Source of the DNA: Granulicella sp. S190
GTDB taxonomy: Bacteria > Acidobacteriota > Terriglobia > Terriglobales > Acidobacteriaceae
Direction of reading: 5' to 3'
DNA: 64,000 nucleotides
Assembly (NCBI RefSeq): GCF_009766095.1
Contig: NZ_LMUD01000009.1
Location: 431,151 to 495,150 of the forward strand
Position 1 is the stretch's first letter. Every line of letters begins with the position of its first letter. Below, piece after piece: positions 13,818 through 29,060 of this stretch. Below the pieces are notes generated by a model. That model ran no database searches. It was not told the origin of the DNA and worked only from the letters and a program-made list of their open reading frames with translations. A program made the translations under genes and the position numbers.

Positions 13818-14453
13818 ATGGAGACCATCGGTAAACCTATAGCCCCGCAGCGCAGCACACCGCGCTACGCGATAGCCTCCGTCTCTTTGCATCTCCTTGT
13901 GATCGCTCTTCTCGTCCATCAACCCGCTAGTTGGATTGCATCCATTCGTCTCCCCGGGAGTCCGCATGGGACGAACCTTCTGCTGACATATTCACCAGGC
14001 AAGGCGCCGCTCCAGACCTCTGCTCCAAACCCCAAAACTCAGCCACAGAAGGCGAACTCCGCTACCCCTCTGCCGACTCCCCCTACGCAGAAGCTAAAAG
14101 AGACTACGACTTCACCCAATACCAACTCTCCCGCTTCCGCAACGCCAGACTCTTCCGCAGGCGCGGACTCCCTCGGCTCCGGCAATATCAACATCGCTCT
14201 GGTCAGCTATTTTCCGACGCCGAAGCCCGATCTTTCCACGCTTCCGCGCGGCACGAAAGGCGATGTGATCTTGGACATCGTCATCGATACTTCAGGAAAG
14301 ATCTCCGACATCAAAATGGCGAGCGGCCTTGGCCATGGCGTGGACGAAGACGTAATCGCAACAGTCCAGCAGTGGACCTTTCATCCCGCAACGAAAGACG
14401 GCCAGCCCGTAGCCAGTGAGCAGGAGCTGCACTTCCACTACGAGAAAGGCTGA
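13818..14453 (+). CDS. TonB-like energy transducer
   Basis: 211 residues. One N-terminal membrane helix (residues about 17-40: YAIASVSLHLLVIALLV), then a Pro/Thr/Ser-rich periplasmic linker (residues about 65-115), then a TonB C-terminal domain with GTKGDVILDIVIDTSGKISD and VIATVQQWTFHPATKDGQPV. Such proteins pass proton-motive-force energy to outer-membrane receptors, but many Acidobacteriota paralogs have unknown partners. AGGAGGGAG precedes the ATG closely. No receptor or ExbBD gene is adjacent. Confidence 0.85.
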   Translation: METIGKPIAPQRSTPRYAIASVSLHLLVIALLVHQPASWIASIRLPGSPHGTNLLLTYSPGKAPLQTSAPNPKTQPQKANSATPLPTPPTQKLKETTTSPNTNSPASATPDSSAGADSLGSGNINIALVSYFPTPKPDLSTLPRGTKGDVILDIVIDTSGKISDIKMASGLGHGVDEDVIATVQQWTFHPATKDGQPVASEQELHFHYEKG

Positions 14454-14474
14454 TTCAAATCCTTCTCAAGCCAG

Positions 14475-15713
14475 CTAGACGACCCGGCTATGCCTGTAGC
14501 CGGCCGCGGTCATCGCCGCCAGTAACTCTTCTACCTGCTCCCGTCCGCGCGTCTCCAGTGTAATGTCGATCGTAGTATCGCCAAGATTTACACCATAGTA
14601 AGCCCGGTTGTAGAGTGTATCGACAATATTGGCGCGGTATTTAGCTATCAAGAATGTCAACTCTGCCAATGCTCCTGGCTTATCCAGAAGGTGGATTCGC
14701 AGTCGAATCATTCTTCCGTCTTGCACGAGTCCGCGCTCGATGATTCTGCTCAAAAGCGTCACATCGATATTTCCGCCGCACACCATGACGGCGGTGTGAG
14801 CACCCTGCAGCGAGGTTTTCTTCTGCAACAATGCCGCAAGCGCTGCAGCTCCCGCGCCCTCGGCAAGCGTCTTCTCCCGCTCCAGCAGGACGAGAATCGC
14901 TGAAGCGATCTCATCTTCATCGACGGTGACGATCTCGTCGACATAGCGTTCCACCACAGGGAACGTCGCATCGCCCGCGCGCCGCACGGCGATACCATCC
15001 GCAATCGTCGTCGAGGGCTCCAAGGTGACAGGATGACCAGCCGCACGCGCCGCGATCATCGAAGACAGCCTTGCGGTCTGAACTCCAATCACTCTTATCT
15101 CTGGACGCGACTCCTTGATCGCACAGGCAATTCCGCCGATCAATCCGCCGCCGCCGATGGGCACCACCACTGCTTCCAGGAGAGGTACCTGTTCCAGCAG
15201 TTCGAGGCCGATTGTGCCTTGTCCGGCCATCACCATCGCGTCATCGAACGGATGGATAAACGTCATCCCCTCCTCAGCGCAGAGCCGGGTCGCTTCATCG
15301 CACGCCTCGTCGTAGTTGGCTCCATGGAGCACCACCTCGGCACCGAACCCGCGTGTCGCTGTCACCTTCACCAGGGGCGTCGCCAATGGCATCACAATCA
15401 GCGACCTGATCCCTCGCTTCGTCGCATGGTAAGCCACGCCTTGCGCATGGTTTCCGGCGCTGGCCGCAACCACGCCGCGTGCCGTCTGCTCCGGCGTCAA
15501 CAATGCGATTCGATTCAGTGCTCCACGCTCCTTGAATGAGCCCGTCATCTGCAGGTTTTCTAGCTTAAGGTAAACCTGCTGACCCGTCAGCGCGGACAGC
15601 ATCTGCGAGTGTGGACATGGGGAGTAGTAGATCGCCTCCCGTACCCGCTCCCGCGCCGCCGCCACATCTGCGAGGCTAATACTTAGTTGGTCTATCGATT
15701 GCTTCCCAGGCAT
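14475..15713 (-). CDS. ilvA: Threonine ammonia-lyase with ACT domain
   Basis: 412 residues. A PLP-dependent enzyme that deaminates threonine to 2-oxobutyrate, for isoleucine synthesis or threonine catabolism. The PLP Lys is in TGSFKERGAL, the Asn loop is SAGNHAQGVAYH, and the phosphate site is PIGGGGLIGG. The C-terminal region from about residue 335 (RLRIHLLDKPGALAELTFLI) is a single ACT domain, so allosteric control by an amino acid is likely. It is the last gene of the minus-strand aromatic run, 51 bases after tyrA, and converges on the TonB-like gene. Confidence 0.92.
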   Translation of the reverse strand: MPGKQSIDQLSISLADVAAARERVREAIYYSPCPHSQMLSALTGQQVYLKLENLQMTGSFKERGALNRIALLTPEQTARGVVAASAGNHAQGVAYHATKRGIRSLIVMPLATPLVKVTATRGFGAEVVLHGANYDEACDEATRLCAEEGMTFIHPFDDAMVMAGQGTIGLELLEQVPLLEAVVVPIGGGGLIGGIACAIKESRPEIRVIGVQTARLSSMIAARAAGHPVTLEPSTTIADGIAVRRAGDATFPVVERYVDEIVTVDEDEIASAILVLLEREKTLAEGAGAAALAALLQKKTSLQGAHTAVMVCGGNIDVTLLSRIIERGLVQDGRMIRLRIHLLDKPGALAELTFLIAKYRANIVDTLYNRAYYGVNLGDTTIDITLETRGREQVEELLAAMTAAGYRHSRVV

Positions 15714-15764
15714 CCTGATCTCTCTTTGAACTTGCAGCTTATATTTTTTCGTTCGACGCGAGAA

Positions 15765-16619
15765 TCATCGTCGCTGGCGAAATCGGTTTGCCAACGCAAA
15801 CTCATTCCGCAGCTCCGGCGTCCGTAGATTCTCGCGCACGTGTTGCAGCCTCTGTTCAAGTGCCAGTAGAGTCTCCGCCACGGGTCCCGTATTCGTCATC
15901 GCAACATCTCGCCACATACTGTAAGGGCTCGCTCCAAGCCGAGTGGTCTCCCGTAGTGCCCGGCCGCCAATCGCCGCAATCTCCGGTGCATCGCCAAATC
16001 TCTCCTCAAGCAGAGCCGCCAGCGCGGTCGACAGCATCTGCGGAAGGTGGCTCACCCACGCGCACATCTCATCGTGCCGTGTCGCGTCCAGATCCAGCAT
16101 GCGTGATCCGAAGCAGCCGACCCAGCCGCGCCATTCTTTCTCAATCGCAGCCATCTCGGGAGAGACCGGGGTGAATAGCCACATTGCCCCGTCGAAGAGA
16201 CCAGCCTCGGCCAGCAGGGCGCCACCCGACTCCTTGCCGGCCATCGGATGTCCTGGCAAAAAAACGGCGGTGGCATCTCCAGCGAACAATTGTTGTGCCA
16301 GCTCAACAATCTCAAGCTTTGTGCTCCCTACGTCGGTTACAAGTTGACCTGCGTGAAGCACGGGAGCCAGCAGCTGCATCCAGTCTTTGATCGCAAGCAC
16401 CGGCACGGCGAGGACAATGACATCGGCCAGTCTAGCCAGCTCCAGCGCACTCTCACGACTTGCCGCTCGTCCATCAATGGCGCCCATTTGCACGGCGGAG
16501 GCCATCTCAAGTTGGCTGGTATCCCATCCGTCGATACGCCCTCCGAACCCAGCAGAACGCAGCGCCAGCCCGGTCGACGCGCCGATCAACCCTGTTCCGA
16601 TGATGAAAACCCTCTCCAT
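15765..16619 (-). CDS. tyrA: Prephenate dehydrogenase
   Basis: 284 residues. It oxidises prephenate to 4-hydroxyphenylpyruvate in tyrosine synthesis. Motifs: IIGTGLIGASTGLALR (NAD(P) binding), VTDVGSTKLEIVE, FLPGHPMAGKESGGA, and WVSHLPQMLSTALA, whose His-Leu-Pro is a hallmark of the family. There is no chorismate mutase or ACT domain fused; chorismate mutase is encoded separately two genes upstream. The start is 19 bases after the aroF stop. Confidence 0.95.
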   Translation of the reverse strand: MERVFIIGTGLIGASTGLALRSAGFGGRIDGWDTSQLEMASAVQMGAIDGRAASRESALELARLADVIVLAVPVLAIKDWMQLLAPVLHAGQLVTDVGSTKLEIVELAQQLFAGDATAVFLPGHPMAGKESGGALLAEAGLFDGAMWLFTPVSPEMAAIEKEWRGWVGCFGSRMLDLDATRHDEMCAWVSHLPQMLSTALAALLEERFGDAPEIAAIGGRALRETTRLGASPYSMWRDVAMTNTGPVAETLLALEQRLQHVRENLRTPELRNEFALANRFRQRR

Positions 16620-16638
16620 TTATGCTGAAATCCTCGTT

Positions 16639-17658
16639 CTACGCAATGGTTCTGTTCACTACAGGGGCCAGTAGTCTTAGCTGCTCCATGAGCTTTTGTA
16701 ACTGCTCCGGATACAAACTCTGCGCTCCGTCGCTCATAGCCTTATCCGGGTTAGGATGCATCTCCATTAGCAGCCCGTCAGCCCCTGCGGCCACGCTTGC
16801 CAGAGCCATCGGGGGCACCAGATCGCGAATCCCAACCCCATGCGACGGATCGCCAAGCACAGGCAGATGCGTCAACTTCTTCAGAACGGGAATCGCGGAG
16901 ATGTCCATCGTATTCCGTGTGTAGGTCTCGTAGGTTCGAATTCCGCGCTCGCACAACATCAGGTTATAGTTGCCACCTGACAGGATGTACTCCGCACTCA
17001 ACAAGACTTCTTCAATCGTCGCGGAGATCCCTCGCTTCATCAGTACCGGTTTGCGCACATGTCCGAGTTCGCGCAGCAGGTTGAAGTTCTGCATATTGCG
17101 CGCTCCCACTTGGAAGCAGTCAATGTACGGTAGCATCAACTCGATCTGCGAGATCTCCATGACCTCTGTGATTACCAGAAGCCCCGTCTCGTCGGAGACC
17201 TCTCGCAGAAGCTTTAGCCCATCCAGTCCCATCCCCTGAAAGCTGTACGGAGAACTCCGTGGCTTGAACGCGCCACCTCGCAAAAACCTCCCTCCCGCAG
17301 CAGCAACCTGTTTCGCACTGGTTAGAATCTGCTCGCGCGACTCCACCGAGCAAGGCCCGGCCATTATGACTACTTCTTTCCCGCCGACCACCACTCCGTT
17401 AGGAAATGTGACCGTCGTTCCCTCTGGTCGAAAGTTGCGGCCCGCGAGTTTATAGGGAGAGGAGATCCGATAGGCGTCGTATACCCCCGATAGCACCTTG
17501 AACTCTGCGACCTCGAAGTGCTCCGGCGTCCCCACACCTGCCAGAATCGTCTGTGCCGCGCCTGTGGTCCGGTGAACGTTGAAGCCGAGCTCCACCATCC
17601 GTTCAATCACCTGCTGGATATTCTCTTCGGTCGCCTGACCATGCATCGCAACTATCAT
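16639..17658 (-). CDS. aroF: 3-deoxy-7-phosphoheptulonate synthase, type I-beta
   Basis: 339 residues. It condenses phosphoenolpyruvate and erythrose 4-phosphate, the first step of the shikimate pathway. An N-terminal ferredoxin-like regulatory domain (residues 1-70) precedes a KDO8PS-like TIM barrel with MAGPCSVESREQI, RGGAFKPRSSPYSFQGMG, GARNMQNFNLL, KPVLMKRG, LCERGIRTYE and LGDPSHGVGIRD. The N-terminal domain is the Thermotoga-type feedback module, so inhibition by an aromatic amino acid or prephenate is plausible. It lies 82 bases after the chorismate mutase gene. Confidence 0.95.
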   Translation of the reverse strand: MIVAMHGQATEENIQQVIERMVELGFNVHRTTGAAQTILAGVGTPEHFEVAEFKVLSGVYDAYRISSPYKLAGRNFRPEGTTVTFPNGVVVGGKEVVIMAGPCSVESREQILTSAKQVAAAGGRFLRGGAFKPRSSPYSFQGMGLDGLKLLREVSDETGLLVITEVMEISQIELMLPYIDCFQVGARNMQNFNLLRELGHVRKPVLMKRGISATIEEVLLSAEYILSGGNYNLMLCERGIRTYETYTRNTMDISAIPVLKKLTHLPVLGDPSHGVGIRDLVPPMALASVAAGADGLLMEMHPNPDKAMSDGAQSLYPEQLQKLMEQLRLLAPVVNRTIA

Positions 17659-17740
17659 CGTCTTCGCTTCACTCTCTTACTTGCGTAACTAAATTAGATA
17701 CAAAAACATGAAATATAAATCAGCTAATGCTGGGGTTTGG

Positions 17741-18004
17741 CTAAAGATCCCGTCGCTGCAATGTTCGCATCACATCGATAATTCGTTCGTAGACATGTAG
17801 TAGCTCTGCATCCGCCAACGGTCCTGGATTCGCCTTGCGTACGCGATCGAAGACATCCTGCTCACGACGTGGCTCGTAGACCGGTAGGTCCGCGGTCCGC
17901 TTAAGTTCTCCAATCGCACGCGCAGCCTCTGCACGCCGGTTGATGAGTCGAACGATCTCAACGTCCAGCTCATCGATCTTTTTTCTCCAGTCGGAGATAT
18001 CCAT
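17741..18004 (-). CDS. aroQ: Chorismate mutase, AroQ class
   Basis: 87 residues, all helical. It converts chorismate to prephenate. The sequence begins MDISDWRKKIDELDVEIVRL and contains INRRAEAARAIGELKR and YEPRREQDVFDRVRK, the active-site Arg, Lys and Glu pattern of AroQ. It is monofunctional and placed between trpA and aroF, feeding tyrA. The gap to trpA is 127 bases; no promoter was identified in it. Confidence 0.93.
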   Translation of the reverse strand: MDISDWRKKIDELDVEIVRLINRRAEAARAIGELKRTADLPVYEPRREQDVFDRVRKANPGPLADAELLHVYERIIDVMRTLQRRDL

Positions 18005-18131
18005 TTACTCGCCTCACGGCAGCGGCGCAACTTCCTACGCAACTCGCTGCAAATCTTTGGTCCCGGCACAGCCGGTACAGATAATGATAAACGTCGCATC
18101 GCGCTGATTCGGCAAATCAGGCTCGCGGCTC

Positions 18132-18893
18132 TCAAGTGCTCAACCCCGCGATGAACTGTCCAATCACAGATGCTGCTTCCGCCGCCGGGGTCTTCTCGAT
18201 CAGGGCCACCAGAGCGCTTCCGATAATAGCCGCATCCGCAAACTCGCTAACGGCCTTTACATGCTCGGCGTTGGAGATTCCAAATCCGACCGCGATCGGA
18301 AGCTTTGTGAACTGCCTGAGCCGCATCACCAGCCCAGAAGCATCTCCCGCGACCTGTTGTTGTGTTCCTGTAATTCCGACGCGCGAAATGGCATAGACAA
18401 ATCCCTGCGAGACGGCTGCGATTGCTTTCAAACGGGCATCCGGACTTGTCGGGGCAGCCAAAAATATTGGCGCCAGCCGATTCGCCTGCATCTCGTCCAG
18501 ATACTCCCGCGCCTCTTCGACGATCATATCCGTCAACAACACTCCATCCACACCGGCCTCGGCAGCGCGCGCGCAAAATGCCTTCATGCCCATGCGAACG
18601 ACAGGGTTGAGATAAGAGAACAACACCAGCCCCGCAGCAGGCCGAGCGGTGCGCAGCTCCTTCGCGAGTTCCAGAACATCGGTCAGCCTGACCCCTCGGG
18701 CCACGGCTCGTTCACTGGCTCGCTGAATCACAGGGCCATCCGCAAGCGGATCGCTGAACGGCACGCCTAGCTCAATAACGTCTGCACCGTTATCAATTGC
18801 TGCCAGCGCAATATCACGAGTCGTTGCAAGATCTGGATCACCCGCAGTCAAATAAGCAACAATACCCGGTCTTTTCTTGAACTCAATCGCCAT
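18132..18893 (-). CDS. trpA: Tryptophan synthase alpha subunit
   Basis: 253 residues, TIM barrel. It cleaves indole-3-glycerol phosphate and channels indole to TrpB. Catalytic Glu and Asp are in VIELGVPFSDPLADGPVIQR; the barrel also shows AYLTAGDPD, FSYLNPVVRMG, SRVGITGTQQQ and PIAVGFGISNAEHV. The usual DLP segment reads DGVLLTDMIVEEA here, a mild departure. It starts 9 bases after trpB and is certainly in the same transcript. Confidence 0.96.
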   Translation of the reverse strand: MAIEFKKRPGIVAYLTAGDPDLATTRDIALAAIDNGADVIELGVPFSDPLADGPVIQRASERAVARGVRLTDVLELAKELRTARPAAGLVLFSYLNPVVRMGMKAFCARAAEAGVDGVLLTDMIVEEAREYLDEMQANRLAPIFLAAPTSPDARLKAIAAVSQGFVYAISRVGITGTQQQVAGDASGLVMRLRQFTKLPIAVGFGISNAEHVKAVSEFADAAIIGSALVALIEKTPAAEAASVIGQFIAGLST

Positions 18894-18902
18894 CGTTCCG
18901 TC

Positions 18903-20141
18903 TTACCCTTTCGTTCTTTCGCTGCCCTTCAGGTCAAGCTCCCGCGCCAGTATTCCCATATCTTTATCGCCGCGACCGGACAGATTCACCATCAGTACAT
19001 CTGTCTTTGCCATCGTCGGAGCCAATCGAATGGCCTCCGCCACCGCATGAGCGCTCTCGAGTGCCGGCAAGATCCCCTCGGTGCGCGACAAAGTTACCGT
19101 CGCCTTCAACGCCGCATCGTCGGAGCAGGAGACATAGCTCGCCCGCCCCGAATCATGCAGCATGGCATGCTCCGGACCAACACTTGCATAGTCCAAACCC
19201 GCAGAGACGGAGTGAGTACTGCTTATCTGGCCAGCGTCATTCTGTAACACGTAGGAGTACGTACCTTGAAGCACTCCCGGTACGCCGCCTCCGATCTTTT
19301 GAAACCGTGCCGCATGTTCGCCCAACGCAGTGCCGCGCCCCCCTGCTTCCACGCCGATAAGTTCTACATCCGTATCCGGCAAAAACTCATAGAACGCGCC
19401 AATCGCATTGGATCCTCCACCCACACAAGCCACAATCGCAGTCGGCAGCTTACCTTCCTGCTCCAGCATCTGAGCCCGCGCCTCGCGGCTGATCACGCGG
19501 TGAAAGTCCCGCACCATCGTCGGATAAGGATGAGCCCCCAGTGCGCTCCCGAGGACGTAGTACGTCGTACGAACGTTCGTGACCCAATCGCGCATCGCTT
19601 CATTGATGGCGTCCTTCAGCGTCGCCGAGCCAGCCGACACTCCGCGTACTTCCGCACCCAGCAAACGCATTCGGTAGACATTCAGCTCCTGGCGCTGCAT
19701 ATCTTCCACGCCCATGTAGACGACGCACTCCAGCCCCAACAGGGCACAGACAGTCGCCGTCGCCACCCCATGCTGCCCAGCGCCTGTCTCCGCGATAATG
19801 CGTTGCTTGCCCATCCGCCGCGCTAGCAAACCCTGGCCCAGCGCGTTATTAATCTTGTGTGCGCCGGTATGCAGCAGATCTTCGCGCTTCAAATAAATCT
19901 TTGCCCCGCCAAGCTGTTCGGTCAGCCTCTTCGCAAAGTAGAGCGGCGTTGGTCGCCCGCAATAGTTGTGCAGAAGATCCTCGAGTTCAGCCTGAAACGC
20001 TGGATCTTTTTGAGCCAGCGCATAGGCCTCCTCAAGCTCCTCCAGCGCAGCCATCAGCGTCTCCGGAACATACCGGCCGCCATACGCTCCAAATCGCCCT
20101 GCCGCCGTCGCCGTTACATGGATCGTCGAACTCGCACTCAT
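18903..20141 (-). CDS. trpB: Tryptophan synthase beta subunit
   Basis: 412 residues. PLP-dependent; it joins indole and serine to make tryptophan. [16 protein letters not shown] opens the fold, the PLP Lys is in [20 protein letters not shown], and the phosphate loop is [10 protein letters not shown]. The ATG at 20141 is preceded by AGGAG at 8 bases. The frame extends 27 codons further up through a terminator hairpin, which cannot be coding. A leader with an attenuator-like structure precedes it. Confidence 0.97.
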
Positions 20142-20165
20142 CGGTCTTCTCCTGCAATGCTCGTG

Positions 20166-20203
20166 TAACAAAAACAAAAGCCGCGACTTGGAGGGTCGCG
20201 GCT
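20166..20203 (-). terminator. Intrinsic terminator in the trpB leader (candidate attenuator)
   Basis: On the minus strand AGCCGCGAC, a 7-base loop, then GTCGCGGCT form a perfect 9-bp stem followed by TTTTGTTTTTG. It ends about 25 bases before the trpB ATG, so it would cut the transcript just before the operon. It could also simply terminate rel, but it lies 177 bases past the rel stop, beyond a short reading frame and other pairing arms. Confidence 0.85.
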
Positions 20204-20288
20204 CGTAAGGATGTCGAATCAACTGAAGTTACAGAGATTTTTCAGATGAAGCTACTCCACCGAGGCCGCTATTGTGCGCCAATAGCGG
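20198..20288 (-). promoter_or_regulatory. Alternative RNA structures of the trpB leader
   Basis: On the minus strand, arm 1 CCGCTATT (20288-20281) pairs perfectly with AATAGCGG (20273-20266) around 7 bases. The overlapping arm GCGGC-C-TCG (20269-20261) can instead pair with CGAGCCGC (20205-20198), which contains the 5' half of the terminator stem. This gives mutually exclusive 1:2, 2:3 and 3:4 pairings as in amino-acid operon attenuators. The 2:3 stem is only 8 bp with one bulge. The function is inferred from sequence only. Confidence 0.6.
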
Positions 20289-20323
20289 GGAATAAACGAA
20301 ATTCGGCTGGATTGAAAAATCAT
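20252..20323 (-). CDS. Candidate leader peptide of the trp/aro operon
   Basis: A 23-codon frame starting ATG-ATT-TTT and ending TAG, encoding a peptide with ISFIPRYWRTIAA in its centre: Phe3, Phe10, Tyr14 and Trp15. The Tyr codon and the first base of the Trp codon lie in arm 1 of the leader hairpin. An in-frame ATG five codons upstream (20338) has GGA 9 bases before it and would give 28 residues; the later ATG has no good ribosome site. It has a single Trp codon, unlike the tandem codons of classical trp leaders, so the call is tentative. Confidence 0.5.
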   Translation of the reverse strand: MIFQSSRISFIPRYWRTIAASVE

Positions 20324-20379
20324 CTTGATTTCAACCATACATGCTGTCCGCTTGCTCTGCAACCCTCGCACTTGAGAGG

Positions 20380-22860
20380 CTAAATCTTCTGCACGCGCTG
20401 AACGTCACGTACCCCCGGCACCTTCCTGAGGTTCTGCACCAGCTTGTTCAAGTGTCGAACATCCACTGTCTCGACCACAAAGTCCACCATGACCTGGCCA
20501 TCCGGCATCGGCTTTGTATCCACGCTGCGTATATTCGTTCCGTCGTCGGATATGATCGCAGTAAATTCTTTCAACATGCCCGCTCGATCATCGCACAGCA
20601 CCGTCAGCTTCACGGGATACGTCTGGGCCTTTGTCGTTCCCGGTTCGTTTGGTGATGGCGACCACTCCACTTGGATCCTTCGGTCCGACTCGTAGAGCAA
20701 GTTCTGAACATTCGGACAGCTCCTTGCATGCACCGCGACGCCCTTGCCTCGTGTCACGTACCCCACAATCTCTTCCCCGCGAATTGGGTTACAACAACGT
20801 GCCCGATACACCAGCAGATCGTCCTGCCCCTCTACCTGCAGCGAGTCCGATCCCTTGCCGAAGAAGACTCGCTTCACCGCCTCCGACATCTGTCCAACGG
20901 TGTTGCCTACTCCACCCTCTGGCAGCGCAGGCTCTGCCGACATCGTCGATCCCGGCTCCAGTTTGTTCAACACCTGGCGCGCAGAGAATTTGCCAAATCC
21001 GACGCCAGCCAGCAGCTCAGCCTGTGTGCCCAGCCCATACTCGCTGGCTACCTTGTCATAGGCCTTCTCATCGAATTTGCCCAGCGCCAGCTTGTACTTT
21101 CTCGCCTCGCGATCCAGCAGCTTCTTGCCGATCTCGATCGCTCGCTCGCGCTGGTGCTCATTCAGCCAGTGTTTGATCTTGTTTCTGGCTCGCGAGCTCT
21201 TCGTAAAGCTAAGCCAGTCGCGGCTCGGCGCATGTCCTGCCTGCGTAGAGATCTCGACGATATCTCCATTACGCAGCTTGGTCCGAAGCGGAACGATGCG
21301 CCCGTTTACCTTTGCGCCGACGGTGGTGTTTCCAACCTCGGTGTGAATCGTATAGGCAAAATCGATCGGGCTCGCATCCTTCGGCAGCACCACTACCTTG
21401 CCCTTCGGCGTGAAGGTGTAGACCTCCTCGGGATATAGATCGATCTTCAGCGTCGACATGAACTCATTGGGATCGGTCATCTCCCGCTGCCATTCCATCA
21501 ACTGCCGGACCCATGCGAGCCTCTGTTCATCTTTCGCACTTACATTGTCGGACGCCTTGTACTTCCAATGCGCCGCAATGCCCTCCTCGGCGACACGGTG
21601 CATATCCTCCGTACGAATCTGCACCTCGAACTGATGCCCACCGTCAGCAATCAAAGTCGTATGCAACGATTGGTAGAGATTCGGCCGTGGCATCGCGATG
21701 AAGTCTTTGATCCTTCCTGGGACCGGCCGCCAGATCGAGTGCAGCAGCCCCAGCAGCGCATAGCAGTCCTGCACCGAGTTACAGATCACGCGAATGGCGA
21801 GCAGGTCATAGACCTGATCGACCGGAATCTTCTGATCCACCAGCTTCTGCTGAATCGAGTACAGCCGCTTGATGCGCGACTCGACGCGCCCCTGGATCTT
21901 GAACTCCTTCAGCTTCGCCTCAAGCTGCGTCACGATCTTCTGCAGAAACTCTTCGCCCGCGCCGCGCAGCGCGTCTACCTCGGTCGATACCTGCTCATAC
22001 GCATAAGGATCGGTGTATCGAAACGCCAGATCCTCGAGTTCGCCGCGCAGCTTACCCATGCCCAGACGATGCGCCAGCGGGGCATAGATATCCAGCGTCT
22101 CGCGGGCAATCTTCTGCTGCTTTTCAGGCTTCAGGTGCTCGAGCGTCCGCATATTATGCAGCCGGTCCGCGAGCTTGATAATCACCACGCGAACGTCGGT
22201 GACCATCGCCAGAAGCATCTTGCGAATGTTCTCCGCCTGGTGGTCTTCGCGATTGGCAAACTTGATCTTCTCAAGCTTGGTTACGCCTTCGACGATGTGT
22301 GCGACCTGATCACCGAATCGCTTCGCGATCTCAGCGGAGGTGACGTCTGTATCTTCTACCGCATCATGCAGCAGCCCCGCTGCAATCGCAGTCGAATCCA
22401 TCTTCAACTCGGCGAGCACCTGCGCGACTTCAAGCGGATGAATGATGTAGGGCTCGCCGCTGGCCCGCTTCTGGCCCTCGTGCTGCTGCAGGCAAAACGT
22501 CCATGCCTTGCGAATGATCTCGAGATCATCGGCTGGCCGGTTCTCATGCACCGTCTCGAGCAGCGTATGAAACTTCGCGTCTACAGATTGAATGGCGGCT
22601 GCTGAACTACCTGTGAGGTGACTGGCCGACGACTCATCGACGCCAGCGATGACAAGGGCAGAAGTATCAGGTATCGCAGCCTGTTTCTTTCGCTTCGCGC
22701 GAGGGGACGCATCCGAGGCGACCGGTGGGTCCGCGACTGGAAGAGCTGCCTCCAGCTCAATCCCCGTATCGGTTTGTTCCACTTGCGGTTCGCTCTTCGG
22801 TTCGTTGTGCGGCGTCGTCTGCGGGCCAGCCTGCGAAGAGGCCGGAGGAGCGATTGCCAT
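20380..22860 (-). CDS. Bifunctional (p)ppGpp synthetase/hydrolase Rel
   Basis: 826 residues of the long RSH family, making and degrading (p)ppGpp. After an unusual Pro/Ala-rich N-terminus of about 100 residues come the HD hydrolase domain (EPYIIHPLEVAQVL, AAGLLHDAVEDT, KLADRLHNMRTL), the synthetase domain (YDLLAIRVIC, GRIKDFIAMPRPNLYQSLHT), a TGS domain (YTFTPKGKVVVLP), a Cys-rich ZFD region (YRARCCNPIRGEEIVGYVTR) and a C-terminal ACT domain. The intact HD motif and the RxKD form of the synthetase loop indicate both activities. It lies directly upstream of the trp operon and divergent from the SpoIIE-type gene. Confidence 0.95.
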   Translation of the reverse strand: MAIAPPASSQAGPQTTPHNEPKSEPQVEQTDTGIELEAALPVADPPVASDASPRAKRKKQAAIPDTSALVIAGVDESSASHLTGSSAAAIQSVDAKFHTLLETVHENRPADDLEIIRKAWTFCLQQHEGQKRASGEPYIIHPLEVAQVLAELKMDSTAIAAGLLHDAVEDTDVTSAEIAKRFGDQVAHIVEGVTKLEKIKFANREDHQAENIRKMLLAMVTDVRVVIIKLADRLHNMRTLEHLKPEKQQKIARETLDIYAPLAHRLGMGKLRGELEDLAFRYTDPYAYEQVSTEVDALRGAGEEFLQKIVTQLEAKLKEFKIQGRVESRIKRLYSIQQKLVDQKIPVDQVYDLLAIRVICNSVQDCYALLGLLHSIWRPVPGRIKDFIAMPRPNLYQSLHTTLIADGGHQFEVQIRTEDMHRVAEEGIAAHWKYKASDNVSAKDEQRLAWVRQLMEWQREMTDPNEFMSTLKIDLYPEEVYTFTPKGKVVVLPKDASPIDFAYTIHTEVGNTTVGAKVNGRIVPLRTKLRNGDIVEISTQAGHAPSRDWLSFTKSSRARNKIKHWLNEHQRERAIEIGKKLLDREARKYKLALGKFDEKAYDKVASEYGLGTQAELLAGVGFGKFSARQVLNKLEPGSTMSAEPALPEGGVGNTVGQMSEAVKRVFFGKGSDSLQVEGQDDLLVYRARCCNPIRGEEIVGYVTRGKGVAVHARSCPNVQNLLYESDRRIQVEWSPSPNEPGTTKAQTYPVKLTVLCDDRAGMLKEFTAIISDDGTNIRSVDTKPMPDGQVMVDFVVETVDVRHLNKLVQNLRKVPGVRDVQRVQKI

Positions 22861-22871
22861 AGTTCATTATA
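22861..22871 (-). promoter_or_regulatory. Consensus -10 box 5 bases before the rel start
   Basis: The minus strand reads TATAAT-GAACT-ATG. If used, transcription would begin at or next to the A of ATG, giving a leaderless mRNA. No Shine-Dalgarno sequence is visible. No good -35 is found at 16-18 bases (TTGACC lies only 8 bases upstream), so the promoter is tentative. Confidence 0.4.
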
Positions 22872-23115
22872 GGCTGAACGGTCAACCCCTTTGCAGCCAC
22901 AACGAAAGAAGGGATGGGCCATGATCCTGAAAGACCCGCATACGCGGAATCGCTATGCCAGCATCAACGTGTGCGCTGCGGGATCTGTCTGCCCATCTGG
23001 TCGTATCGACATAGAGACATAGAGGACAAGAGAAACGAAAGACAAATGCTGCGCGCAACCGAGACTCCACTATAGTACCGATCAGGATCAATCCCATCCA
23101 ACTGGTGACCCGAAC

Positions 23116-25233
23116 GTGCTCGATCGGAACGTAGTGAAGTCTTTTGCTTTCCTGCTGCTGTCTTTTTTCAGCCTTGCCTCCGTCGCTCAGACCGCCAAAC
23201 CTGAACCGCAGCAAGCCGATGCCACGAACTCTGCCTTTGTGCGCGTCCAGCCCGCCCTCCTTGCGGATGACGACATCGCACACATCACCCTCGGCCAGTC
23301 CATCTACCCGCTTAACGGCCCGTGGAAGTTCACCGTCGGCGACTCGCCGCTTGATCCTGCCACGCACCAGCCTCTATGGGCCGAACCCAGCTTCGACGAC
23401 TCGCACTGGGAGACCGTCGACCTCACCCCGCCGCCCGGCTCCTTCAACTCCTTGACCGGCGCACCCGGCTTCGTCCCCGGCTGGACGGCCAGGGGCCATC
23501 CCGGCTACTCCGGCTACGCCTGGTACCGCATCCGGGTCAGGCTCAACGCGTCACCTGGCGAGAAGCTCTCCCTTGCAGGACCCAACGATGTAGACGACGC
23601 CTTCCAGGTCTTCGCCAACGGGTCGCTGCTGGGCAGCTTTGGCGACTTCTTCAGGACCCATCCCGCAATCTACGAAAGCCAGCCGACACTCTTCCCCATT
23701 CCACCCTCAGCGCAGGGCACCGCAGCCGACGGCACCCAGGTGCTCGCCTTTCGCCTCTGGATGGATCCATCTACGCTCACACTGGAGGATGATCCAGGCG
23801 GCATCCACACCGCCCCGCTGCTCGGTCAGGCGGGCACCCTCTCCGCCAATTACCAGGTCCGTTGGCTGGAACGGACTCGCTCCTATACGTTAGTGTTTGT
23901 TGAGTTTCTTCTCTTCTCCCTGCTTGCGGTGCTGGCCTTCAGCCTGTCCATCTTCGATCGCTCCGACAAGATCTACTACTGGATCGCCGCAGTCTATGCG
24001 ATTTCGGCATGTGCGGAAGGTACGTCGCTCGCCGGCAATTTCAGCCAGTCCATCAGCGGATCAACAGTAAGCATATTATTGGACGTTATTTTCATTCCTT
24101 CCGTCCTTGGTGGCTGGGTGATGGTCTGGTGGCTCTGGTTCCAGCGGAGGCGGCCCACCTGGCTGCCAAAGGCCGTCGTGGTCCTGACGCTGCTCTACAT
24201 GGTCGGCAACTTTCTGGGCGAAGAGATCGTCTTCGGCCTCGTCCCCCACTCTGTCGCAGTAAAGTTTCATCTGCTCTCAGTCGCGGCCCGGCTGGCCTTC
24301 CTTGCGCTGCTGGTGTTGGTCGTCATCCTCGGAATCCGCTACAAGGGGCGCGAGGGTTGGATCGCCCTGCCCGCCGTTCTTATGCTCAGTATTGCAAGGT
24401 TCCAGAATGAACTCAGCACGCTTCACGTCCACCACAACTGGTTTGCCTTCGGGATACGACTCAGCCTTGGCACGGCTGCGAACTTGCTTCTAGTCCTCAC
24501 CCTGTTCGTCCTCCTGCTGCGCCGCATGTTCGTCTCCCTGCGCGTCCAGCGCGAGCGGGCCCTCGACATCAAGCAGGCCGCCGAGGTCCAGCAGGTCATC
24601 CTCCCCGAGTCCCACTTCACCTTCCCCGGCCTCGCCATCGAAACCGAGTATCGCCCCGCCCGCGAAGTCGGCGGCGACTTCTTCCAGCTCATCCCTCATC
24701 CCACTGACGGCAGCCTGCTCATCGTCGCCGGAGACGTCACCGGCAAAGGCCTCCAAGCGGGCATGCTCGTCGCGCTGTTGGTCGGCGCCGCCCGCTCCAC
24801 CGCCGAGATCAACCCCGATCCCCTCTTTCTCCTTCAGGCGCTAAACCGCCGTCTGCTCGGTCGCCGCTCCGCCCAGGCTACTTGCCTGGCCCTGCGTATC
24901 GCCGCCGACGGCTCCGCCACGCTCGCCAACGCGGGACATCTGCCGCCGTATGTCAACGGGAGACCACTCAACATGGAAGGTGCCCTCCCGCTCGGCATCA
25001 TCGACGGAGCAGAGTTCTCCGTCATGCACTTCCAGCTAACCTCCAGCGATAAGCTCGTCGTCATCTCCGACGGCATCCTTGAAGCCACCGACGCGCACGG
25101 CGAGTTATTCGGCTTCGACCGCGTCGCCGAACTCCTGCGAAACTCCACCCCCGTCAAAGCCCTGGCCGACGCCGCCCAGCTCTTCGGCCAGAACGACGAC
25201 ATCAGCCTCGTTGCCCTCACCCGCACCACGTAA
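23116..25233 (+). CDS. Membrane-bound SpoIIE/RsbU-type PP2C phosphatase
   Basis: 705 residues. Signal peptide (FAFLLLSFFSLASVAQ), then a periplasmic beta-sandwich region (residues about 55-250; NGPWKFTVGDSPLD, FDDSHWETVDL, YAWYRIRV) like sugar-binding jelly rolls of DISM-type receptors, then seven hydrophobic helices (about 265-480), then a cytoplasmic PP2C domain with EYRPAREVGGDFFQL, VAGDVTGKGLQAGM, VISDGILEATD and NDDISLVAL. It probably dephosphorylates an anti-anti-sigma factor in response to an external ligand; no partner is adjacent. Start is GTG at 23116; a GTG at 23134 with GGA upstream is an alternative. Confidence 0.88.
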   Translation: MLDRNVVKSFAFLLLSFFSLASVAQTAKPEPQQADATNSAFVRVQPALLADDDIAHITLGQSIYPLNGPWKFTVGDSPLDPATHQPLWAEPSFDDSHWETVDLTPPPGSFNSLTGAPGFVPGWTARGHPGYSGYAWYRIRVRLNASPGEKLSLAGPNDVDDAFQVFANGSLLGSFGDFFRTHPAIYESQPTLFPIPPSAQGTAADGTQVLAFRLWMDPSTLTLEDDPGGIHTAPLLGQAGTLSANYQVRWLERTRSYTLVFVEFLLFSLLAVLAFSLSIFDRSDKIYYWIAAVYAISACAEGTSLAGNFSQSISGSTVSILLDVIFIPSVLGGWVMVWWLWFQRRRPTWLPKAVVVLTLLYMVGNFLGEEIVFGLVPHSVAVKFHLLSVAARLAFLALLVLVVILGIRYKGREGWIALPAVLMLSIARFQNELSTLHVHHNWFAFGIRLSLGTAANLLLVLTLFVLLLRRMFVSLRVQRERALDIKQAAEVQQVILPESHFTFPGLAIETEYRPAREVGGDFFQLIPHPTDGSLLIVAGDVTGKGLQAGMLVALLVGAARSTAEINPDPLFLLQALNRRLLGRRSAQATCLALRIAADGSATLANAGHLPPYVNGRPLNMEGALPLGIIDGAEFSVMHFQLTSSDKLVVISDGILEATDAHGELFGFDRVAELLRNSTPVKALADAAQLFGQNDDISLVALTRTT

Positions 25234-25314
25234 CCGCGTCCAGGTTTCACAACGCTGGCCGCAGAAGTATCGGTCTCTCAGTTGCCAGATCGCCGGGTGC
25301 GCTAGTCGATCAGG

Positions 25315-25374
25315 AAACCCCGGGTGCCCCATATCTCGATTTTGAGATGTGGGTATTCGCGCAGAGCGCGAACC
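25315..25374. repeat. Double-hairpin REP-like element
   Basis: CCCATATCTC-GATTTT-GAGATGTGGG (one G-T pair) is followed immediately by TTCGCGC-AGA-GCGCGAA. Two compact stem-loops side by side are typical of extragenic palindromic repeats. Only one copy was seen in this window. Confidence 0.6.
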
Positions 25375-25685
25375 GTCGTCCCCAAGCCTATCCGCGACAC
25401 CAACCTCTAGCAGCCAATCCAGATCCCAACCACCAAACATGTCAATCCCCAAAACCACGAATCCCCTCTCCAATCCAGCACATTCGCGTGGCGCATCGGT
25501 TATGTTCCCACCGTTATACTGAATGCAGAGAAACACAAGCCACCAGATCGAGCGGGGAGCCTCTCCTAGCAACCCGCAACTCATTCATTCTAAGTATTTT
25601 GCACTCAACCCCTTTATTCTGAATATTTTGCAGACGAGGGCTGTCTGTAAGCAATTCAAAGGAAAAGAGTTAGCCCCAAGATACC

Positions 25686-25721
25686 AAGGAAGGGGGGAGG
25701 GGGTACCCTCCCCCCTTCCTT
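25686..25721. terminator. 16-bp perfect purine/pyrimidine inverted repeat after acnA
   Basis: AAGGAAGGGGGGAGGG, a 4-base loop, then its exact complement. It lies 25 bases past the aconitase stop. There is no T-run on either side, so it is an unconventional terminator or an mRNA 3'-end stabiliser. The G-rich arm could also form a quadruplex. Confidence 0.6.
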
Positions 25722-25746
25722 AGAAAGAATTAACGGCGGTACACCT

Positions 25747-28653
25747 CTAAGCCGAGGCCGGAACCTTCCCCGCCAGTTGCCGAAGGACGTACTGCAGAAT
25801 TCCGCCGTTCTGGTAGTAGAGAATCTCCTGCGGAGTATCGATGCGCACGGTAGCCGAAAACTCGATCGTCTTCCCCAGATCAGACTCCGCGAACACGGTG
25901 ACCATCCTGCCCTCGGCGAACTTGCTGTCGAGCATGCTCTTCAACTGGCCCGCCGCATCCCCGATGGCAAACACCTCTTCGCCTGTCAGATGGAGCGACT
26001 CGGCGTTCTGCCCCGGCAAAAACTGCAGCGGCAAAATCCCCATTCCGACGAGGTTCGATCGGTGAATCCGCTCATAGCTCTCAGCGATCACAAACTTGAT
26101 CCCCAGCAGCCGCGGACCCTTCGCCGCCCAGTCGCGCGACGATCCCGATCCATACTCCTTGCCTGCCAGAATCGCCAACGGCGTCCCGCGCTTCGCATAC
26201 TCGACGCTCGCGTCATAGATCGACATCGGCACATCTTCAGGAAGAAGCCGGGTCACGCCGCCTTCGGTTCCGGGAGCCAGCTTGTTCCGGAGCCGCACAT
26301 TGGCAAACGTCCCGCGCACCATCACCTCATGGTTGCCTCTGCGCGAGCCGTAGCTGTTGAAGTCCGAAGGCTTCACGCCGTTTTCGATCAGATACTTTCC
26401 TGCAGGCCCGTTGAGCTTGATCGATCCCGCCGGCGAGATGTGATCCGTCGTCACGGAATCTCCAAGCACCGCCAGCACTCTTGCCCCGTGAATATCCTCG
26501 ACAGGAGCAGGCGTCGCCGGCATGCCGTCGAAGTAAGGAGCCTTACGAATGTAGGTCGAGTCCGCCTCCCACCCGTACGTCTCCCCATCAGGAAACTTCA
26601 GGCTCTTCCAATTATTGTCGCCGTCAGAGATCGTGCTGTACTGTCGCCGGAACATCTCCGAATCGATCGACGAGTTCACCGCCTCTGAAACCTCCGCCTG
26701 CGTCGGCCAGATATCTTTCAGAAAAACCGGCTTGCCATCGAGATCACGGCCGAGCGCTTCTTTGTCGAAGTCGTGTGCAATATGGCCAGCCAGCGCATAG
26801 GCCACCACCAGCGGCGGACTCATCAGGTAGTTCGCCCTTACCTCCGGCGAGATTCTTCCCTCAAAGTTCCTGTTGCCTGAGAGCACCGATACGGCTACCA
26901 GTCCATGGTCCTCAATCGACTTCGAAACATCCGTCGGCAGTGGTCCGGAGTTTCCGATGCAGGTGGTACAGCCATACCCCACTACCTGGAATCGCAGCTG
27001 GTCAAGATAAGGCATCAATCCCGCCTTCACGTAGTAGTCCGTGACGACTCGCGAGCCTGGAGCGAGCGAAGTCTTGACCCACGGCGGCGTGCTCAAACCC
27101 TTCTCGACAGCCTTCTTCGCAAGCAGACCCGCAGCCATCATCACGTAAGGATTCGAAGTGTTCGTGCAGGAGGTGATTGCCGCGATCACAATCGACCCAT
27201 GGTCGAGATACTGATCCGGATCCACTCCAAACCTGCTCCGGATTGAAACATGCGGAGCCTCGAGATGCGGCACCGTCTCATCTTTGATCGTAATCACCGG
27301 CACCACCGGGGACTCCACCACCGGTGCAGAAGCCCCAACGCTGCTGCTGAGATCGCCCGATGCGGAAGCGGTCCCGCCCTCTCCCTCCCAACGGACCATC
27401 TGACGAATCACATGCTTGTTGCCATTCGGCCCCAGCAGTCCAGGCAGCTGCTCTTTGAAGCTGGCTGCTGCGCCCGACAGCGCAACCCGGTCCTGCGGAC
27501 GCTTCGGCCCGGCAACGCTGGGTTCGACGGTAGCCAGATCAAGCGCGATCGTTGTCGAGTACACGGCCTCCTTCGCATCACCGGTGTGGAACATCCCCTG
27601 CTCGCGGTAGTAGGCCTCCACGAGTGCAATCTGTTCTTCGCTGCGCCCAGTCAGACGCATATAGCGAAGCGTCTCTACATCCACCGGAAAGATGCCGCAG
27701 GTCGCGCCATATTCGGGAGCCATATTCGCGATCGTCGCGCGATCAGCCAGCGGCAGCTCTGCTATCCCTGAGCCATAGAACTCGACAAACTTGCCTACGA
27801 CGCCCAGTTTGCGCAGCATCTCCGTCACGGTCAGTACGAGATCGGTAGCGGTTGTTCCTTCCTTCAACTTGCCAGTCAACTTGAACCCGACCACCTGCGG
27901 TATCAGCATACTTACCGGTTGCCCCAGCATCGCAGCCTCTGCTTCGATGCCGCCCACGCCCCATCCCAGCACTCCCAACCCGTTGACCATCGTCGTATGC
28001 GAGTCTGTTCCCACCAGCGTATCGGGATAAGCAAAGACCTTACCCTGTGCATTCGGTGTCGTCGTAAACACCACTCGCGCCAGGTACTCCAGATTCACTT
28101 GGTGGCAGATACCCATGCCGGGCGGCACCGCCGAAAAATTATTGAAGGCTGTCTGTCCCCACTTCAAGAAGGCATACCGCTCGCGATTCCGTTGAAACTC
28201 CAACGCAGCATTCAGGTCATAGGCCCGCTGTGTTCCAAACTCATCTACTTGCACCGAGTGGTCGATCACCAGCTCCGCCGGTTGCAGCGGATTGATCTTC
28301 TCCGGATCGCCACCGAGCGCCTTCATCGCATCCCGCATCGCAGCCAGATCGACAATCGCAGGCACGCCGGTAAAGTCCTGCATCAGTACACGCGCCGGCA
28401 TGTAAGCAATCTCACGCGAAGGCTCTGCGTTCGGATCCCAGCAAGCCAGAAACTGGATATCATCCGCGGTTACTGTGCGGCCATCCTCATGACGCAGCAG
28501 GTTCTCCAGCAGAATCCTCAGAGAGAAGGGAAGGCGGCTAAGATCAACGCCCGTTTCCTCCAGCGCCTTTAGTCGAAACAAGTCGTACGTAGTCTTTCCT
28601 ACAGACAGGGTGGACGAGCTCTTAAACGAATCAGGATGCGATTGGGTCGGCAT
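25747..28653 (-). CDS. acnA: Aconitate hydratase A
   Basis: 968 residues, TCA-cycle conversion of citrate to isocitrate with a [4Fe-4S] cluster. The cluster Cys are in [11 protein letters not shown] and [14 protein letters not shown]. Other marks are [39 protein letters not shown] and the swivelling-domain [20 protein letters not shown]. It is longer than usual because of a Ser/Ala/Val-rich insert ([19 protein letters not shown]) before [10 protein letters not shown]. The ATG at 28653 ([10 protein letters not shown]) has GGAGAAG 8 bases upstream and is preferred to a longer frame. It is flanked by long intergenic regions, so probably monocistronic. Confidence 0.96.
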
Positions 28654-29060
28654 GGTATCTTCTCCGAGGCGCGCTCTTGGTAGCGCGATGGTTGGGGCCG
28701 TGGTCACATCTTCGAACCGCAGACAGCAACGGCTGAAGCCTATCAAGTTTTCAGGGGAGGGGTCGAACTAGCAGCGGCCGCGGTCAGGGCGACCGTGGCG
28801 AAAGCGCTTCGTGTTGGCAAGGCAGCCAGCCATCGAACCAATTTTACTGCTATCCGGTCCTCTGCGGTAAAGTCCATGTGGTAAGGCGCTAAGTCTATGC
28901 CAGGCCCTAGATGCCAAGGTCTTGGTACTCTCGAAAAGCAGCGAAAGCTGCGCCTTATCAGAGCGCTGCCTCAGCCCAAAAATAGCAGTCCATAAAAAAG
29001 GTGCATCTCAATTCAGAAGTTCGTGTTTATACCTGCAGCAGGTAAGAGGAGACTGGCAGT
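28654..29060. other. Divergent promoter region between acnA and the lipoprotein gene
   Basis: No gene is seen. Near 28775-28800 there is an imperfect hairpin (CCGCGGTC / GACCGTGG). Just before the lipoprotein ribosome site lies the palindrome ACCTGC-A-GCAGGT (29033-29045), a possible regulatory site. No confident -35/-10 pair was identified. Confidence 0.5.

Follow-up and report, generated by a model that had tools for sequence, protein, structure and literature searches.

The phe leader attenuator of enteric bacteria is of the same kind as the trp and his leaders. The enteric leaders share with the RNA described here a short open reading frame with codons for the cognate amino acid, arms that pair as 1:2, 2:3 and 3:4, an intrinsic terminator and a biosynthetic operon downstream (for trp and his, passages of PMC1183508). 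The trp attenuators of Corynebacterium and Streptomyces were also predicted by comparison and likewise have a leader peptide, an antiterminator and a GC-rich terminator, one species of that set carrying its attenuator upstream of a trpB2A operon (passages of PMC1262725); the word aroF is absent from the main text of that article. In Acholeplasma, the uORFC-13-1 motif combines an upstream frame holding one or more Phe codons with a terminator before aroF, the gene for DAHP synthase (passages of PMC8632094). According to a 2010 survey, hardly any attenuator predicted in phyla such as the Acidobacteria had an associated function (passages of PMC2965389), and leader-to-gene distance statistics that include the phylum name no aromatic attenuator there (passages of PMC4833913). 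No published description of the element analysed here was found in the titles, abstract openings and passages of the open-access literature.

The window analysed here is the whole stretch of 64,000 nucleotides from Granulicella sp. S190, within which a candidate attenuator element was read directly from the sequence. On comparative grounds it is considered with high confidence to be a ribosome-mediated transcription attenuator that senses the charging of aromatic tRNAs, and to be one copy of a previously undescribed RNA family of the Acidobacteriota.

The probable attenuator locus

The element occupies the minus strand of the rel/spoT-trpB intergenic region, and its features and those of its surroundings are as follows.

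20380-22860: rel/spoT, upstream neighbour of the attenuator element
20357-20362, minus strand: -35-like box, TTGCAG
20334-20339, minus strand: -10-like box, TATGGT
20252-20323, minus strand: leader open reading frame MIFQSSRISFIPRYWRTIAASVE, 23 codons from ATG to TAG (UAG at 20254-20252), with Phe3, Phe10, Tyr14 and Trp15
20280-20288, minus strand: arm 1, CCGCTATTG, spanning the codons for Arg and Tyr and the beginning of the one for Trp
20266-20274, minus strand: arm 2, CAATAGCGG, partner of arm 1
20261-20269, minus strand: predicted antiterminator, 5' side, GCGGCCTCG, the distal half of arm 2 and beyond, pairing with 20198-20205
20198-20205, minus strand: predicted antiterminator, 3' side, and arm 3, CGAGCCGC, from pairing comparison and folding
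20178-20204, minus strand: intrinsic terminator hairpin, arms 3 and 4, GAGCCGCGAC/GTCGCGGCTT, then the T-rich TTGTTTTTGTT
18903-20141, minus strand: trpB, the first structural gene (TIGR00263, above cut-off), its start at 20141 preceded by AGGAG
18132-18893, minus strand: trpA (TIGR00262, above cut-off)
17741-18004, minus strand: aroQ, chorismate mutase of 87 aa (TIGR01807, 62.6 bits, below the cut-off of 69.55)
16639-17658, minus strand: aroF, DAHP synthase (TIGR01361, above cut-off)
15765-16619, minus strand: tyrA, prephenate dehydrogenase (best models all under their cut-offs)

Downstream of the attenuator the gene order on one strand is trpB, trpA, aroQ, aroF, tyrA, ilvA, and the attenuated operon is taken to extend over trpBA-aroQ-aroF-tyrA. 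The ilvA gene (threonine ammonia-lyase, 14475-15713, same strand) begins 51 bases past tyrA and is a candidate member of that operon.

The leader frame with Phe, Phe, Tyr and Trp codons noticed in the preliminary description is present, and its 23-codon version is conserved in relatives. The longer, 28-codon version also proposed there was discarded: its start ATG overlaps the -10 box (20339-20334), so that only the 23-codon frame is compatible with the likely transcript. The hairpin formed by arms 1 and 2, initially reported as a perfect 8-bp stem, has one closing G-C pair more and is a 9-bp stem (20288-20280 / 20274-20266). A terminator with a T-run before trpB was seen where it had been described and also figures in a terminator-scan list; its stem comprises 10 bp (nine Watson-Crick pairs and one G-U), and the alternative pairing between arm 2 and the 5' arm of the terminator is likewise present in the sequence. 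The folded region reaches -54 kcal/mol against a shuffle mean of -40.0 kcal/mol (z -3.37) and is more stable than 200 of 200 dinucleotide shuffles. No Rfam 15 family, the T-box and known leader families included, matched the window at the gathering score, and a search of 20050-20450 at E<=10 returned one chance-level match (E 0.61) on the opposite strand; T-boxes, riboswitches and known leader families were rejected on this absence of a match.

The -35-like and -10-like boxes are separated by a 17-nt spacer in Granulicella sp. S190, and the pattern of TTGC and TA...T at a spacing of 17/18 is kept in relatives under ad hoc scoring. The -10-like box lies 10 nt 5' of the leader ATG, with a predicted transcription start at about 20327. 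This putative promoter is absent from a generic promoter scan of the window and was recognised by comparison with relatives. A hand-built score, its weights set after the relatives' boxes had been inspected, gave a strong match at 119 of 130 leaders versus 100 of 906 control ATGs scored identically. The distance from the -10 box to the AUG was 7-12 nt in 95 of the 119 strong-promoter leaders and 9-10 nt in 74 of them, a spacing that is thus established by comparison, and a Shine-Dalgarno-like string was found in 14 of the 130 leaders only. The typical 5' UTR would accordingly measure about 3-4 nt, making the RNA near-leaderless and not strictly leaderless. The weakness of the ribosome site, raised as a caveat in the preliminary description, is answered in part, since it fits a 5' UTR predicted to be very short. 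A survey of leaderless genes counts the Acidobacteria with the groups whose gene starts have a TANNNT box directly 5' of them, and leaderless genes average 13.3% in three Acidobacteria genomes (passages of PMC3160421).

Distribution and target genes

Conservation of frame and stems in related genomes had been proposed as a check, and comparison established that both are kept. A DNA search with a 321-base query against 40 relatives and the own genome (E below 1e-8) picked up the trpB leader in 21 of the 25 genomes of the genus, the own genome included. Two further genus genomes have a trpB leader, one divergent and recognised by reading (L122), the other detected by a covariance model (L130). 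The AUG, Phe10, Trp15 and the UAG stop are invariant in an alignment of 20 of the 23 trpB leaders, which left out two with hairpin-loop insertions (L013, L018) and the divergent L122; in the wider set of 45 trpB leaders the stops are UAG in 34, UGA in eight and UAA in three. No such leader was seen by eye in up to 330 nt upstream of 15 more distant trpB loci (L033-L047). Among named records, those with the closest trpB belong to the Acidobacteriaceae and Granulicella. Second copies before the shikimate kinase gene aroK were reached via secondary matches of the DNA search; that of the own genome (G000:C6:620680-620845, L190) encodes the leader MSSRFQFAFFTYSYWRHPAASGVLACISENT. By eye, the 700 nt upstream of trpE and of two ilvB-type matches in the own genome contain no such leader.

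At E<=1, 95 of the 200 family genomes, from 45 of the 79 genera, gave a match to a covariance model built from 20 trpB leaders. Among the 90 family loci examined (L123-L212, four of which, from G000, G001, G012 and G015, are training sequences), 83 lie immediately 5' of trpB, aroK, aroF or aroQ, and some aroQ targets then continue with pheA and aroF. The seven loci without an aromatic gene comprise one at a contig end (L151) and six unrelated matches with E-values of 0.0024-0.028 (L192, L197, L198, L199, L204, L208). Target labels of 30 genus loci were set by hand, and the identity of the L122 trpB and of 11 aroK genes comes from inspection of their open reading frames. An NCBIfam check of representatives placed DAHP synthase and prephenate dehydratase above a cut-off and gave shikimate kinase (E 6.5e-34) and two chorismate mutases (E 5.5e-19 and 3.1e-17) as best matches below the cut-off.

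A class-wide search returned matches in 79 of 399 genomes at E<=0.1 and added members in families f5 and f7; 16 of the 20 class matches retrieved precede aromatic genes, the exceptions being L241, L250, L254 and L255, and loci L213-L235 (n=23) were left out of one-by-one reading. When the phylum was searched with a model built on 44 leaders of the aroF/aroQ type, 62 of 396 genomes gave a match at E<=0.01. The 20 phylum matches retrieved, 19 from outside the class and one from the own family (eight of the 26 match genomes outside the class being left out), stand before aromatic genes in 13 cases, before cysteine-synthase-like or sulfite/nitrite-reductase-like genes in three and before neither in four. 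Model matches at E<=0.01 occur in 43 of 79 sampled own-family genera and in 24 of 210 phylum genera, and are candidate members of which part were read as loci. These counts refer to genomes and not to independent events. One aroQ leader of family f7 (L237, G365) is nearly identical to leaders of genus g58 in another family, which could reflect transfer or a mis-binned contig.

Leader codons and the target pathway

The 130 tabulated leaders precede trpB (45), aroF (33), aroK (32), aroQ (18), pheA (one) and a contig end (one). A Trp codon falls within the first 20 residues of 45/45 trpB, 32/32 aroK and 27/33 aroF leaders and of 0/18 aroQ leaders in this main set, and also of the single pheA leader and the contig-end leader. 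Every leader of the trpB, aroK, aroF and aroQ groups has a Phe codon, and a Tyr codon is found in 44/45 trpB, 32/32 aroK, 31/33 aroF and 18/18 aroQ leaders. Contrary to the main set, three of seven aroQ-first leaders of the outgroup family f34 contain a Trp codon. Trp is required by the branch of trpB and not by that of chorismate mutase, and the comparison indicates that leader codons track the target pathway and match the operon product. The suggestion that a leader reading several aromatic codons would suit an operon serving several pathways is supported: all 32 aroK leaders combine Phe, Tyr and Trp, 27 of 33 aroF leaders include Trp, and the 18 main-set chorismate-mutase leaders have Phe and Tyr only. 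Sensing of Trp alone was rejected, the main-set aroQ leaders being entirely without Trp.

In order to assess frame specificity, the codons before arm 2 were counted in the 117 leaders that have just one open ATG frame, where aromatic codons make up 34.5% in frame versus 5.2% and 11.7% in the two alternative frames; the background in eight structural proteins is 5.5% for Phe, Tyr and Trp together and 0.65% for Trp. For the remaining 13 of 130 leaders, without exactly one open ATG frame, the aromatic-rich frame was tabulated where there were several, and L209, with none, was entered by hand with its short frame. This last aroF leader (L209:601-752, G151) has a TGA stop at the Trp position, its peptide ending right after Arg-Tyr. 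Frame-specific aromatic codons and a frame kept in relatives are the sequence observations that bear on translation of the leader. The Trp codon ends exactly 9 nt 5' of the GCGG core in 38 of 44 trpB leaders, seven leaders without a GCGG core having been dropped from the distance counts.

Covariation of the competing stems

In an alignment of 98 members, 95.6% of cells are paired versus 37.5-49.6% for slid partners. The alignment was made by fitting to the covariance model, whose own stems are thereby favoured, and includes 17 training rows; this version (A4) replaces an unfiltered one (A3) in which antisense terminator matches were mixed in. Both sides have changed in 19 of the 26 modelled pairs, with 148 doubly changed cells versus 32 in shuffles, a total reached in none of 500 shuffles. 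The doubly changed cells divide into 47 in stem 1:2, 47 in terminator 3:4 and 54 in the outer stem, and pairs changed on both sides number seven of nine in stem 1:2 and, with pairing kept, five of ten in the terminator. An intrinsic terminator between the leader frame and the first gene was located by script in 129 of 130 leaders.

The competing duplex between arms 2 and 3 stands outside the covariance model and was compared separately. Depending on the pair, bases of the GCGGC block face complementary bases of the GCCGC block in 82 to 92 of the 98 rows. The own arm 2-arm 3 duplex is on average 2.8 kcal/mol better than swapped partners and 2.7 kcal/mol better within the same target class, and against shuffled arm 2 sequences its mean z is -2.63. 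With L114 dropped, the own partner beats the mean swap in 97 of 129 leaders, and in 90 of 127 within class; the 32 of 129 leaders in which it does not count against the pairing. In L236 and L238 (family f5) the core of arms 2, 3 and 4 is swapped as a set to GAGTGG/CCACTC/GAGTGG, and L239 of the same family retains GTGG against CCAC. Within the trpB group alone the arm 2-arm 3 rod is 92.5% paired and near-invariant, with one doubly changed pair, as frequent in shuffles. The comparison is thus consistent with an antiterminator in that group, not proof of it, and because of this near-invariance the covariation support comes from more distant members. The rod does offer a reason for the conservation of the ASAE codons and the stop.

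Coding and pairing changes go together within stem 1:2. In L032, Arg-Tyr-Trp has become Arg-Thr-Trp and both arms of the hairpin have changed to match, so that Trp and the pairing are kept and Tyr is lost, and elsewhere the choice of TAT or TAC for Tyr goes with ATA (Ile) or GTA (Val) on the opposite arm, with six doubly changed cells at that pair.

Proposed mechanism

The leader and its competing hairpins very probably switch the trpB operon on when Phe, Tyr or Trp is short, as judged from the comparisons above. Transcription would begin about 4 nt before the leader AUG, and the ribosome would load almost at the 5' end. With Phe, Tyr or Trp scarce, it would stall at Phe10, Tyr14 or Trp15 and occupy arm 1, leaving GCGGC-CTCG free to pair with CGAG-CCGC of arm 3 within a long antiterminator rod; this fold would block the terminator and permit readthrough into trpBA-aroQ-aroF-tyrA. 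With charged aromatic tRNAs, the ribosome would proceed to the UAG, which lies 10 nt beyond the GCGGC core, and would cover that core, and arms 3 and 4 would pair and terminate. Were the leader to go untranslated, stem 1:2 would form and the terminator would follow. Antiterminator and terminator are predicted to be mutually exclusive from both sequence and folding.

The folding assumed that a ribosome extends 11 nt beyond its A site, an expected reach to which the 9-nt distance between Trp codon and core comes close. With this value, RNA of the window made as far as the terminator loop folds at -25.0 kcal/mol when the ribosome sits on Phe10 or Tyr14, at -19.5 kcal/mol at Trp15 and at -3.9 kcal/mol at the stop. 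The objection that a ribosome stalled at Trp would partly cover arm 2 is answered in part: the half covered would be the one that pairs with arm 1, and most of the GCGGC-CTCG that pairs with arm 3 would stay free. Given the assumed reach, a ribosome at Phe10 or Tyr14 allows the full antiterminator and one at Trp15 a shortened form.

Once arm 4 is complete, the lowest-energy fold with the ribosome at Tyr14 includes the terminator (-28.8 versus -25.0 kcal/mol for the antiterminator before arm 4). As the terminator is favoured even during a Tyr14 stall, the switch would have to be kinetic, with the order of synthesis deciding the outcome. The two folds of the textbook attenuator are described as similarly stable (passages of PMC1183508). 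In a simple folding model applied across leaders, at least five arm 3 bases pair upstream in the stalled state in 41/44 trpB, 15/30 aroK, 24/32 aroF and 12/18 aroQ leaders. With the ribosome at the stop, such pairs persist in 31/44, 8/30, 7/32 and 6/18 leaders respectively, and are weak, with means of -5.7, -1.7, -3.3 and -2.8 kcal/mol in the same order.

Alternative explanations

A leader peptide of this kind might instead act as a TnaC-like arrest peptide, the nascent chain binding a free aromatic amino acid so that arrest, and not tRNA charging, sets the fold. A core near F-T-Y-R-Y-W does recur across the four targets, and many trpB leaders close alike, with ASAE or GSAD ahead of the stop. 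However, much of the conserved part consists of aromatic positions that vary between Phe, Tyr and Trp or of codons that lie within stems, the Arg codon sitting in arm 1 and the ASAE codons in the antiterminator rod, and L179 keeps the nucleotides CCGCT although its frame reads Thr-Ala. It can also be reasoned that stalling at high Trp would turn a biosynthetic operon on amid plentiful product. An arrest peptide is accordingly considered very improbable.

The strongly conserved structure with its terminator would also be expected of an RNA that binds a ligand or a tRNA, such as a riboswitch or a T-box-like element, in which the frame is incidental. The absence of an Rfam match at gathering in the window, the concentration of aromatic codons in one frame and the way in which these codons follow the target gene all oppose this explanation, which is given even less credence than the arrest peptide. 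Finally, the element could be an ordinary constitutive terminator and promoter around a decorative short frame, without regulation. In favour of this, terminator-like sites are not enriched in the region 14000-30000, which holds 10 of them versus a mean of 11.1 in shuffles; the competing pairings are nevertheless conserved, the codons match the pathway and the spacing is fixed, and an unregulated element is scarcely credible. Attenuation by a ribosome that reads aromatic codons is retained as the best explanation of the trpB leader; the original observation is confirmed in the sequence, and comparison with relatives supports its interpretation as an attenuator.

Other amino acid leaders in the phylum

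Upstream of hisG (PF01634) in the own genome (G000:C42; L257, L260) lies a His-rich leader, MSSLRLHHGHSHHHHAKSVLAAVSGVAK, with counterparts in relatives (L261-L279) such as MSVRLQHHGHHHHHAQSVLAAVSGVAK; a GCCCGC...GCGGGC terminator follows in 20 of 20 loci examined, and several relatives have a TTGACA box near the ATG. The gene behind this leader, beside hisG, is presumably hisI. From its sequence this is likely a histidine attenuator of similar build. In another family of the phylum the aromatic model also picked up Cys-rich leaders with terminators (e.g. MNKSCFCFCCCVCCACCWGRD...). Two of these precede cysteine-synthase-like genes (L344, L348) and one a sulfite/nitrite-reductase-like gene (L349), with NCBIfam matches that are strong but below the cut-offs. 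At a further locus (L351, G661) aroF is preceded by the leader MNTGRQYFYFYYFYLK, whose GGCAGACAG arm is repeated in the first of a tandem pair of terminators, in a compact textbook layout.

A broader proposal, towards which the evidence leans slightly, is that amino acid biosynthesis in the Acidobacteriota is largely under near-leaderless attenuators, one paralogous cassette having spread by copying to four or more aromatic operons (trpB, aroK, aroF and aroQ-pheA) and retuned by swaps between Phe, Tyr and Trp codons, with similarly built His and Cys leaders in the phylum. For one attenuator family of the Acidobacteriota, the present analysis proposes what it does, which amino acids it senses and which genes it controls, and supplies a model with which to search for it. 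Across its leaders, nature has set one RNA frame with differing control codons before different branch-point genes, and this makes both the codon-pathway rule and attenuation from an almost absent 5' UTR directly testable.

Comparison with known attenuators

In contrast to the enteric leaders, the Acidobacteriota RNA serves trpB, aroK, aroF and aroQ with retuned codons, its Trp codons are few and mixed with those for Phe and Tyr, its frame mostly runs through arm 2, and almost no 5' UTR is predicted. A likeness in this last respect exists with trpL of Sinorhizobium meliloti, whose transcript begins with the leader AUG, the start being a predicted one here; trpL controls trpE(G) in cis, and both the trpL RNA and its peptide have further targets in trans (passages of PMC7298713). 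The Corynebacterium and Streptomyces attenuators differ in their double or triple Trp codons and in belonging to the Actinobacteria (passages of PMC1262725), and the uORFC-13-1 motif differs in occurring in other bacteria, in 24 sequences and before aroF only, with a ribosome-binding site described (passages of PMC8632094). The mechanism proposed for the trpB leader is thus of an established kind, and what is new is the family, in its distribution, its targets, the tuning of its codons and its predicted near-leaderless start.
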